From Natronomonas gomsonensis (GTDB lineage: Archaea; Halobacteriota; Halobacteria; Halobacteriales; Haloarculaceae): 64,000 nt of DNA. The stretch spans positions 868,001 to 932,000 of the forward strand of contig NZ_CP101323.1 in NCBI RefSeq assembly GCF_024300825.1, in the 5' to 3' direction. Both the position numbers and the translations under genes were made by a program. The notes beneath the pieces are model-generated. The model made no database searches. It was not told where the DNA came from and saw only the letters and a program-made list of their open reading frames with translations. Of this stretch, positions 33,260-36,626 are shown piece by piece (position 1 is the first letter of the stretch; each line of letters opens with the position of its first letter).

Positions 33260-35215
33260 ATGTCTAGCAACACTCCCGTTTGGATGCAGGCGGAGGCGGA
33301 GTACGAAGACGAGGTGATAGGTGACACCACCCTCCCTCGGATGTTCGAGGAGGCCGCGGCGCGTCACGCCAGTCGCGACGCACAGTGGTACAAAGGCGGC
33401 GTCTACGACCGTTCGCTGACGCCGGACGTGGTTCCGGCCGCCCCGACCGGCCAGTACGCGGCGCTCACCTACGCAGAGATGCAGAACACCGTCCACAACC
33501 TCACCGCCGGGTTCCGCGAACTCGGCGTCGAGGGCGGTACCCGCGTCGGCATCTTCGCCAACACCCGCATGGAGTGGGCCCAATCCGACTTCGCGCTGTT
33601 GGCTGCCGGTGGCGTCGTCACCACGGTGTACACCGAATCCGCGCCCCCACAGGTGCAGTATCTCCTCGACGACCCCGGCGCCGAGGGCGTCGTCGTCGAG
33701 AACGCCGAGTTGCTCGAACGCGTCCTCGAAGTCGAAGACGACCTCAATCTCTCCTTTATCGCTGTCATCGACGAGTTCGACGGCTACGACGACCGCGACG
33801 ACATCCTCTCTCTGGCGGAGGTGTACGAACTCGGCGCCGAACACTTCGACGGCGACGCCTACGAGGAGTGGCTGGGCGAACGTGACCTCGATGACCTCGC
33901 CAGCCTCATCTACACCTCGGGGACGACCGGCAAACCGAAGGGCGTCCAGTTGACCCACGGCAACTTCCGAGCGAACGTCAACGGCATCCGAAAGCGAGTC
34001 GGACCGCGGCCCGACAAGGACCCCGACATCCCAGTCTTCGACGAGAACGACCGGATGCTTTCGTTCCTGCCGCTCGCACACGTCTTCGAACGCGTCGCCG
34101 GACACTTCCTGCAGTTCGGCTCCGGCTCGACCGTCGCCTACGCCGAATCCACCGACACCGTCGCCGACGACATCAAGTTGGTCGGGCCGACGGGCGCCTC
34201 CTCGGTCCCCCGCGTCTACGAGCGCATCTACGACAACATCCGCGAAGAGGCTCCGGATGCCGTCTTCGGCCGCGCCGTCTCCGTCGCCCGCGAGTGGGCA
34301 ACGACCGAAAATCCCGGCGTCGTCCTGCGGATGAAACACGCCCTCTTCGACAAACTGGTCTACTCAAACGTCCGCGAACAGATGGGCGGCAACATCGAGG
34401 CGTTCATCAGCGGCGGTGGCAGCCTCTCGAAGCGACTCTCACAGCTGTTCCAGGGGATGGGCCTGCCCATCTACGAGGGGTACGGCCTGACCGAGACCTC
34501 GCCGGTCGTCTCCGTGAATCCGCCGGAAGATTCCCGTGCCGGTACGCTTGGCCCGCCGCTTTCCAACGTCGACGTGCGACTCGACGAATCCGTCGTCGGC
34601 GACGACCGGCGTGCGGAAGTCGACGGCGACATCGGCGAACTCCACGTGAAAGGGCCGAACGTCACGCAGGGCTACTGGAACCGCCCCGGGTCGACCGAGG
34701 AGGCGTTCACCGAGGATGGCTGGTTCCGAACCGGCGACATCATCGAACAGAGCGACGATGGCTACCTCATCTACCACGACCGACTCAAGCAACTCATCGT
34801 GTTGGACACGGGCAAGAACATCGCGCCTCAACCCATCGAAGACGAGTTCGCCACCTCCGACCGCATCGACCAGGCGATGGTCATCGGTGACAACCAGAAG
34901 TTCATCGCGGCGCTGTTCGTGCCGAACTTCGAGGCCGTCCGCCGCTGGGCGGAAAACGAGGGTATCGACCTCCCCGACGACGAGACGGCCATCTGTGCCG
35001 ACGACCGCGTCCACGAGTTCATCGAAAAGGAGGTCGAAGCCGTCAACAAAAAGCTCTCGAAATCGGAGAAAATCAAGGAGTTCCGGCTGGTTTCCGTCGA
35101 GTGGACCGCCGACAACGATCTGCTGACGCCGTCGATGAAAATCAAGCGCCGGAACGTCCTCGACGAGTTCGATGAGCAAGTCCGGGACATCTACGGCGAA
35201 TACTACGACGAGTAG
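33260..35215 (+). CDS. Long-chain fatty acid-CoA ligase (AMP-forming)
   Basis: 651 residues, the longer FadD15/ACSL-like type. Motifs: IYTSGTTGKPKGVQLTHGNF near residue 215, YEGYGLTETSPVVSVNPPED near 410, the hinge DRLKQLIVLDTGKNIAPQPIED and a C-terminal lysine region TPSMKIKRRNVLDEF. It activates long-chain fatty or isoprenoid acids at the membrane. TATTAATATGG-like sequence about 30 bases before the ATG serves as TATA box. It is not an orthologue of the 557-residue ligase at the window start; the two share only the superfamily. Confidence 0.9.
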   Translation: MSSNTPVWMQAEAEYEDEVIGDTTLPRMFEEAAARHASRDAQWYKGGVYDRSLTPDVVPAAPTGQYAALTYAEMQNTVHNLTAGFRELGVEGGTRVGIFANTRMEWAQSDFALLAAGGVVTTVYTESAPPQVQYLLDDPGAEGVVVENAELLERVLEVEDDLNLSFIAVIDEFDGYDDRDDILSLAEVYELGAEHFDGDAYEEWLGERDLDDLASLIYTSGTTGKPKGVQLTHGNFRANVNGIRKRVGPRPDKDPDIPVFDENDRMLSFLPLAHVFERVAGHFLQFGSGSTVAYAESTDTVADDIKLVGPTGASSVPRVYERIYDNIREEAPDAVFGRAVSVAREWATTENPGVVLRMKHALFDKLVYSNVREQMGGNIEAFISGGGSLSKRLSQLFQGMGLPIYEGYGLTETSPVVSVNPPEDSRAGTLGPPLSNVDVRLDESVVGDDRRAEVDGDIGELHVKGPNVTQGYWNRPGSTEEAFTEDGWFRTGDIIEQSDDGYLIYHDRLKQLIVLDTGKNIAPQPIEDEFATSDRIDQAMVIGDNQKFIAALFVPNFEAVRRWAENEGIDLPDDETAICADDRVHEFIEKEVEAVNKKLSKSEKIKEFRLVSVEWTADNDLLTPSMKIKRRNVLDEFDEQVRDIYGEYYDE

Positions 35216-35241
35216 AACAGCACCACTCCTCTGACCGACAG

Positions 35242-35250
35242 TTTTTATAT
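35242..35250 (+). promoter_or_regulatory. TATA box of the cysteine leader ORF and cysE
   Basis: TTTTTATAT lies about 30 bases before the leader ATG at 35276. The predicted transcript start is near 35272, so the leader ORF would be translated from an almost leaderless mRNA. Confidence 0.6.
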
Positions 35251-35275
35251 CGTCGTCGCGGGATACGTAGACAGG

Positions 35276-35353
35276 ATGGCACACAACCACGCCGATTCGC
35301 GTTCCCGCGCCGCTGTCCCGCTTGCAACGTCGGCGTGTCGGTGTTGCTGTTGA
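35276..35353 (+). CDS. Poly-cysteine leader peptide upstream of cysE
   Basis: 25 codons starting MAHNHADSRS and ending SACRCCC followed by TGA. Four of the last five residues are Cys, with codons TGT, TGT, TGC and TGT. Cysteine is rare in haloarchaeal proteins, so this cluster just before the serine acetyltransferase gene is striking. The frame starts about four bases after the predicted transcript start. The stop is ten bases before a strong hairpin. By analogy with actinobacterial cysteine leader peptides, slow decoding at low Cys-tRNA would change folding or coupling and raise cysE expression. This role is inferred. Confidence 0.7.
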   Translation: MAHNHADSRSRAAVPLATSACRCCC

Positions 35354-35363
35354 GCCTCTTTTC

Positions 35364-35388
35364 CGGCCGTCGCTCCCAGTGACGGCCG
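35364..35388 (+). promoter_or_regulatory. Strong hairpin between the leader ORF and cysE
   Basis: Eight perfect pairs (35364-35371 with 35381-35388) extend by three more, one of them G-T, to an 11-pair stem with a CCC loop. It begins ten bases after the leader stop, so a ribosome stalled on the Cys codons or terminating there would reach it. No T-run follows; the next 40 bases are pyrimidine-rich. Confidence 0.6.
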
Positions 35389-35432
35389 CTTCGCTCTCGC
35401 CCCGCCTGCTTCCCACCCGACACGACTCAGAT

Positions 35433-35987
35433 ATGGTACTCGACCGACTCAGAGAGGACGTTCGCACCGCACTCGCAAAGGACCCCGCCGCCACCAGCGC
35501 CATCTCCGTCGCGCTGTTGTATCCCGGCCTACACGCCGTCTGGGGCTACCGAATCGCCCACTGGCTGTGGGGCCGCGACAACACCTTCGCCGCACGTGCG
35601 CTCTCGCAGTTCGTCCGACTGCTCACCGGCGTCGAAATCCACCCCGCTGCCGACATCGGTCGGCGGCTGTTCATCGACCACGGAGCGGCCGTCGTCGTCG
35701 GTGAAACTGCCGACATCGGCGACGACGTGTTGATGTATCACGGCGTCACATTGGGCGGCGACTCGATGCGCCGCGAGAAGCGCCACCCGACGCTGGAAGA
35801 CGGCGTCACCCTCGGCGCCAACGCTACGCTGCTCGGTGCTATCACCGTCGGCGAGAACGCCTCCGTCGGCGCCGGTAGCGTCGTCGTCGACGACGTGCCT
35901 CCCGAAACCACCGTCGCGGGGTCGCCCGCGAAACCGGTCTCCGGAACCGGGTCCGACCGGGTCACCGAGGACTGTTCGCCCGAGTGA
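35433..35987 (+). CDS. cysE: Serine O-acetyltransferase
   Basis: 184 residues from the ATG at 35433; no ribosome site is visible just upstream. The N-terminal helical region LREDVRTALAKDPAATS and YPGLHAVWGYRIAHWLW is typical of the short CysE form. It is followed by the left-handed beta-helix with VEIHPAADIGRRLFIDHG, TADIGDDVLMYHGVTLGG and the hexapeptide repeats. It acetylates serine to O-acetylserine, the acceptor for sulfide in cysteine synthesis. No cysK is adjacent. Feedback inhibition by Cys is usual in the family. Confidence 0.95.
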   Translation: MVLDRLREDVRTALAKDPAATSAISVALLYPGLHAVWGYRIAHWLWGRDNTFAARALSQFVRLLTGVEIHPAADIGRRLFIDHGAAVVVGETADIGDDVLMYHGVTLGGDSMRREKRHPTLEDGVTLGANATLLGAITVGENASVGAGSVVVDDVPPETTVAGSPAKPVSGTGSDRVTEDCSPE

Positions 35988-36017
35988 GTTTTATTCTCGC
36001 CGTGCCGAGGACCGCCC

Positions 36018-36626
36018 GTGCAGTCGCCACACGAGTACCTCCGCGACGACGCCTACGTCGGACCGCTCATCGAGGAACACGGCGTCCTCGAACTCGACAC
36101 CGCCGACGACATGTTTGAGCGATTGGTCGTCTCCATCCTCCGCCAGCAGGTGTCGATGGCCTCGGCCGCAGCGACCCGAAATCGACTGTTCGAGTCGGTC
36201 AAGGTGACACCCGAGGGAATCCTCGCCGCCGACCCCGAGACGCTTCGGGACGCCGGTCTCTCCCGACAGAAGACCCGCTACGTCCGCAACGTCGCCGAGG
36301 CGTTCCGCGAGGAGTACAGTAAAGCCCACTTCGAAGCACTCGACGACGACGAGGTCGTTTCCGAACTCACGTCCATCACGGGCGTCGGCGAGTGGACCGC
36401 GAACATGCAGTTGCTGTTCTCGCTCGGCCGGCCCGACGTGTTCCCAGTCGGCGACCTCGGCGTTCGGAAGGGAATGCGGACGCTCTACGGCGACGAGGAG
36501 ATGACTCGCGAAGGGATGGTCGCGGAAGCCGAGCGCTGGGCGCCGTATCGGAGCTACGCGACACTGTATCTGTGGCGTATCGAAGAGGACATCGCGGAGT
36601 CGGTGGCGGAGGTAATCGGGAAGTAA
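36018..36626 (+). CDS. DNA-3-methyladenine glycosylase II (AlkA-like, HhH-GPD)
   Basis: 202 residues with a GTG start 30 bases after cysE. The HhH motif SITGVGEWTANM is at residues 119-130 and the catalytic Asp146 in VFPVGDLGVRKG. ILRQQVSMASA is the typical N-terminal element. It removes alkylated bases such as 3-methyladenine. It lacks the C-terminal Fe-S cluster of endonuclease III, which separates it from Nth/MutY. It may be read through from cysE. Confidence 0.9.
   Translation: MQSPHEYLRDDAYVGPLIEEHGVLELDTADDMFERLVVSILRQQVSMASAAATRNRLFESVKVTPEGILAADPETLRDAGLSRQKTRYVRNVAEAFREEYSKAHFEALDDDEVVSELTSITGVGEWTANMQLLFSLGRPDVFPVGDLGVRKGMRTLYGDEEMTREGMVAEAERWAPYRSYATLYLWRIEEDIAESVAEVIGK

Follow-up and report, generated by a model that had tools for sequence, protein, structure and literature searches.

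Our sequence and comparative data indicated that cysE of Natronomonas gomsonensis is preceded by a short leader peptide gene ending in cysteine codons, and that this leader probably gauges how much charged Cys-tRNA is available and regulates cysE in cis (probability, roughly 0.77). The window, the whole stretch of 64,000 nucleotides analyzed here (NZ_CP101323.1, positions 868,001 to 932,000), had previously been interpreted from its letters alone as carrying a cysteine-responsive leader in front of cysE. All coordinates of this sequence-only reading proved right to the base, and its cysteine-responsive interpretation was supported by the comparative sequence data.

All features of the locus lie on the forward strand. 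A TATA box (TTTTTATAT; 35242-35250), located as first described, predicts a transcript start at about 35272, the position proposed earlier from that same spacing. The leader ORF of 25 codons, encoding MAHNHADSRSRAAVPLATSACRCCC and then a stop, occupies 35276-35353 (ATG, 35276-35278; TGA, 35351-35353) and, given the start predicted from TATA spacing, we infer it to be leaderless or nearly so. Its proposed regulatory element is the codon series TGT CGG TGT TGC TGT (Cys-Arg-Cys-Cys-Cys; 35336-35350), adjoining the TGA. A pyrimidine/U-rich tract (GCCTCTTTTC; 35354-35363) adjoins the leader stop on its other side, and an RNA hairpin of 11 pairs (CGGCCGTCGCT-CCC-AGTGACGGCCG; 35364-35388) begins ten bases past that stop, with perfect pairing, including one G-U, around a CCC loop. 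A C- and A-rich spacer (35389-35432) leads to the presumed regulated gene, cysE (35433-35987), which encodes a serine O-acetyltransferase of 184 aa (TIGR01172; 232.3 bits against a cut-off of 210.65) and whose ATG at 35433 is backed by an alignment of 12 orthologues (that of the window and 11 others). The distance from leader stop to cysE ATG is 79 nt, a stretch in which neither a Shine-Dalgarno-like motif nor a TATA-like element was seen. The ORF with its cysteine-rich end, the hairpin, and the cysE start lacking a ribosome site were thus all found as they had been described. A search of Rfam gave no match up to E = 1 within 35000-36200, and a riboswitch or other known RNA was rejected on this result.

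To follow the leader beyond the window, the cysE upstream regions of all 108 cysE-bearing genomes in its GTDB family (f1; members include Natronomonas, Haloarcula, Halosimplex, and Halorientalis) were analyzed, selecting ORFs blind to cysteine (ATG start, 15-70 codons, leaderless distance from a TATA-like element). Among the first 91 genomes of the family, 69 carried a TATA-ATG ORF at leaderless spacing, and 63 of the 67 distinct leaders (65/69 genomes) had at least two Cys in their last eight codons, a feature produced by only 1 of 2730 dinucleotide shuffles. Because a choice of ORFs blind to Cys recovered Cys-rich ends at this rate, the attenuator reading is supported. In total, a Cys-tailed leader preceded cysE in 75/108 family genomes, including L180, which the TATA pattern had missed, and 9 of the 17 remaining genomes (L354 by eye). 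The absence of a Cys-ending ORF in close relatives had been named as grounds for abandoning the idea; such an ORF was present in most of the family, with an altered layout elsewhere. Nearly all leaders in the family have 23-33 codons, and their stops lie 32-97 nt from cysE. Examples are MAHSHAAFTVRPARRPVSAAACCCCC and MVFYSISFRGRSVLELIEDLSVCCC in Natronomonas, MGDRVPRRATRPLRTAISCRSSRCCCRPQ in Haloarcula, MHHGRERSSGRTDSDQPNSVRRCCC in Halosimplex, and MCVRRSRATDSLEISLASCGCCRC in Halorientalis. Orthologues of the window leader were found in five further Natronomonas genomes, plus a degenerate one in genome G007. As a control, 30 cysK-family loci from these genomes showed no Cys uORF; many of these genes look leaderless themselves.

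About 30% of the family genomes, several Natronomonas among them, lacked the leader or carried only a degenerate form, so cysE can do without it, a point that weighs against the sensing reading. Decayed leaders with a single Cys (AAAAGCRR and AGRCR, each followed by a stop) were observed in G007 (L006) and genus g8 (L341-L343); these keep promoter, length, and stop position and represent natural loss-of-sensor cases suited to comparison. In genus g10 (L147, L157, L161, L163, L164, and L171), to which L054 of Halorhabdus amylolytica also belongs, a TTTAA promoter-like element lies about 100 nt or more before cysE at the six loci listed, and no ATG leader ORF was found between the two. Here the 5′ leader may be untranslated and of a different type.

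The conservation pattern recommended earlier as a check, a Cys-rich end kept through synonymous change, was borne out by the upstream alignments, in which the Cys tail is kept in frame and the third bases of Cys codons vary freely. In the leader frame, 33% of the last eight codons encoded Cys, compared with 0.7% and 2.1% when the two other frames were read, and the Cys codons comprised 145 TGT and 71 TGC. The relatedness of the genomes inflates all frame and codon counts given here. Among 19 group representatives, identity was 40% over the last five residues and 10% over the remaining positions, the latter being the level expected from composition. These data support the view that selection maintains the ORF together with cysE, including the reading frame, the location, and the Cys codons, and leaves the remainder of the peptide free to change. 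With conservation confined to the Cys tail, the ORF is best understood as a supply-sensing leader, not as a working peptide.

In the mechanism that we propose, a ribosome would start at the leaderless or nearly leaderless AUG and translate the leader as far as the Cys codons at its end. With ample cysteine, the ribosome would pass quickly and terminate, leaving the leader-cysE region in a low-CysE state; when Cys-tRNA is short, it would stall on the Cys codons, where it would cover both the pyrimidine tract and the base of the hairpin, and more CysE would be made. Translation of the leader, stalling, and the direction of the response are all inferred, and three ways in which a stall might be read out were weighed.

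The first, which we entertain tentatively, is a readout at the level of translation, in which either the Cys-codon stretch or the hairpin masks the start of cysE until a ribosome parked on the Cys codons frees it. Only 1/66 spacers had a Shine-Dalgarno-like motif in the 15 nt before the cysE ATG, and suitable pairing is available at several loci: in the window, the Cys codons could base-pair with CCGACAC, which lies immediately before the cysE AUG; in genus g9, 13 pairs, including a matching change, join the Cys codons and the cysE start (CTCAACGACA / CTCGACGACA); and a Haloarcula subgroup shows a long match between the same two regions. Across the family, however, this pairing (-16.7 kcal/mol) hardly exceeded that obtained with swapped genomes (-16.3 +/- 0.26 kcal/mol; 11/200 swaps as good) and was weaker than pairing with shuffled start regions; within Natronomonas, only 61.5% of cells pair. 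The idea that the Cys codons hide the start of cysE in general, although suggested by individual folds, was therefore rejected against swapped and shuffled partners. A supposed compensating change in L003 also proved to leave a mismatch.

The hairpin itself was well conserved over six Natronomonas genomes: pairing held in 93.9% of cells, and two of the pairs had changed on both sides. The window transcript as a whole folded no better than shuffles (z = 0.01), so the support for the hairpin rests on this conservation, by which it is judged real yet confined to the genus Natronomonas. Family-wide, the spacers folded no better than shuffles either (mean z, -0.03 over 66 spacers), and a spacer hairpin as the common device was rejected on this result. 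Part of Haloarcula has another short spacer hairpin. Separately, Halosimplex leaders (A4 columns 51-67) contain a 7-pair hairpin, GCCGAAC...GTTCGGC, directly before the Cys codons, with a compensating change in L185. No single signal-carrying RNA structure or pairing was conserved across the family.

The most widespread spacer feature in the family was instead the pyrimidine/U tract (TTCTC, TTTC, CTTTT, or similar), found within 25 nt past the leader stop in 43/66 leaders, as against 6/63 in the next 25 nt and 1/66 at the leader start. This enrichment points to a second readout, at the level of transcription, in which a stalled ribosome would shield the U-rich tract from FttA/aCPSF1, the termination nuclease of archaea, and RNA polymerase would continue into cysE under cysteine shortage. 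U-rich stretches of nascent RNA are bound and cleaved by FttA, and it has been hypothesized that FttA and the ribosome exclude each other (PMC11616081; see also PMC8716108). We nevertheless consider this readout doubtful, as 23/66 leaders lack the tract as defined, and by eye nothing comparable follows the Cys cluster in the related families described below.

A second layout was found in Natrialbaceae (sampled in Natrinema, Natrialba, Natronococcus, and Salinadaptatus; L239-L251, L056-L058, L062, and L085) and in family f7 (L228-L233 and L253), where a leaderless uORF of 46-65 codons precedes cysE. Its Cys cluster (RCCR, CCC, or CRC) lies at codons ~20-25, and at least two Cys occurred within five codons in 17/19 distinct uORFs; Cys accounted for 23% of codons 18-26 in the uORF frame and for 1.8% in the other frames. 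Read in a frame other than that of cysE, the uORF extends to or beyond the cysE ATG and ends nearby. Its stop starts -2 to +17 nt from that ATG in 20/20 listed cases and overlaps or touches the beginning of cysE at the majority of these loci. This stop appears to be preserved by unusual synonymous codons within cysE. Codon 2 of cysE is TTT or CTT in 7/7 f7 genomes, creating TGA or TAG for the uORF; a T-choice at this codon occurred in 7/7 f7 but 8/64 f1 genomes (p = 5e-6, relatedness uncorrected). Likewise, CGT precedes GAG/GAA in the R-E-D motif of cysE in 12/17 Natrialbaceae but in 0/25 f1 genomes. Sampled members of f4, f8, and f9 had no such uORF before cysE; in several of these genomes, the cysE transcript itself appears to be leaderless.

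With a uORF that extends into the start of cysE, Natrialbaceae and f7 probably use a readout that involves termination beside the cysE AUG. This brings in the third readout, termination-reinitiation, in which ribosomes finishing the leader would restart at cysE at a rate set by the Cys codons, so that CysE synthesis would depend on translation of the leader. Termination-reinitiation is proven in Haloferax volcanii (PMC6728339), and the gene pairs described there share with the Natrialbaceae/f7 layout an overlapping stop and start, and some loci of that layout have GGAG-like motifs ahead of cysE; the pairs differ in that the upstream partner here is a short Cys-bearing uORF, and the window's family lacks the overlap. 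Contact between stop and start was seen only in Natrialbaceae and f7, whereas the gap is 79 nt in the window and 32-97 nt in its family, which is far for reinitiation. Furthermore, a shortage of cysteine would lower CysE under this scheme, the wrong sense for a biosynthetic gene. The coupled re-initiation suggested in the sequence-only reading thus fits the second layout and fits the window less well, and as the general readout it is quite unlikely.

Two explanations would dispense with sensing altogether. That the product of the ORF is a working Cys-rich micropeptide (metal-binding or redox), placed before cysE by chance, is very improbable. Small Cys proteins are numerous in haloarchaea, and the in-frame conservation of Cys would be compatible with a working peptide as well. 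Against this, conservation between genera does not extend to any residue beyond the Cys tail, the number of Cys (2-5 per leader) and their spacing vary, and the gene downstream of these leaders is always cysE; ten leaders compared with NCBIfam and Pfam gave no match, although such short queries are low in power. A conserved RNA or DNA motif (UGUUGUUG), UGY-rich by nature and indifferent to translation, is scarcely plausible as the source of the Cys codons, given that the frame is kept with an ATG ~20-27 codons upstream despite varying distance, that synonymous third bases and Arg codons are tolerated and a stop ends the series, and that the frame is also kept in the second layout.

Within the host genome, pattern searches indicated that the cysE leader stands by itself. 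TGYTGYTGY followed by TRR (TGYTGYTGYTRR) occurred at 20 sites, which included no further Cys leader; among those of the 20 that end in a stop, the cysE leader was the only ATG ORF behind a TATA box. The pattern TATA-ATG-TGYTGY at the expected distances gave 33 matches, of which 30 were read; the sole CCC ending among those belonged to the cysE leader, and two other short in-frame ORFs did not have a Cys end. Applied to six further genomes, the same search recovered the cysE leader in the three with a suitable CCC run, along with a few other sites. A counterpart search with Trp codons in the host genome yielded 16 matches and no convincing leader; four identical copies of one stretch (L324, L330, L335, and L337), possibly a mobile element, were observed among the results.

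In bacteria, attenuators of the trp, his, and ilvB type consist of a leader peptide with end-product codons before the biosynthetic gene. The leaders described here share the end-product codons in a leader ahead of its biosynthetic gene, but their host is an archaeon with FttA-dependent termination, and a terminator hairpin with a U run was found neither in the window nor, as no hairpin is shared, across the family. Since the window hairpin is not followed by a U run (CTTCGCTCTCG follows it), an intrinsic terminator of the bacterial type was ruled out.

The closest likeness is to the leaderless poly-Cys sORFs of mycobacteria, which are reported to attenuate downstream genes in response to cysteine, with experimental support (Canestrari et al. 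2020, Mol Microbiol 114:93, doi 10.1111/mmi.14498, as cited in PMC9031893 and PMC13236596). In the mycobacterial translation attenuators, a ribosome on the Cys codons is proposed to open the downstream start. As far as the citing accounts describe the mycobacterial sORFs, both sets combine a short ORF, predicted to be leaderless in the archaeal set, with consecutive Cys codons as the regulatory part, proposed as such here, and a cysteine or sulfur gene downstream. In the window, the Cys run lies at the 3′ end of the short ORF (CRCCC, then the stop) and cysE follows directly, with a shared transcript predicted; the TATA-to-ATG spacing fits a leaderless ORF in 69/91 genomes with predicted starts; and pairing over the downstream start was seen in some genera but not family-wide. 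The sets differ, within the same accounts, in that ours is archaeal, precedes cysE, has no Shine-Dalgarno motif at the cysE start, carries a pyrimidine tract past the stop, and has a second layout overlapping the cysE start. Short ORFs in haloarchaeal 5′ leaders have been described before: H. volcanii has 16 uORFs of 15-31 codons in long 5′-UTRs (PMC4983044), which are unlinked to cysE and for which the section describing them mentions no amino-acid-specific codon runs. Two of these 16 precede aminoacyl-tRNA synthetase genes, namely, tryptophan-tRNA ligase HVO_A0127 and pheS HVO_2948 (PMC4983044, Table 2).

Judged from sequence, the archaeal leaders share the anatomy of the mycobacterial poly-Cys sORFs without a detectable sequence relation. 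Because they match no curated family and their N-termini are unrelated even between genera, an independent origin seems more likely than acquisition from Actinobacteria; of the two routes left open earlier, that the leader had arisen here or been acquired, the former is favored and no sign of the latter was found. A composite scenario, an attenuator born in the Archaea in which the stall blocks FttA/aCPSF1 at the U-rich tract and so ties transcription of cysE to the supply of Cys-tRNA, with a solution of the reinitiation type in related families, is rather unlikely as a whole.

Ribosome-mediated attenuation through amino-acid codons has been described in bacteria. We found no case of archaeal leader-peptide attenuation in the open literature searched, a set that leaves out most subscription papers. 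A conserved and well-delimited set of leaders in cultivable relatives, such as Haloarcula and Natrinema, makes nutrient sensing by archaeal ribosomes testable, and the same set bears on the question of FttA-dependent termination versus translation starts lacking a Shine-Dalgarno motif. The two layouts of apparently one sensor at haloarchaeal cysE provide a natural comparison of how such a device evolves.
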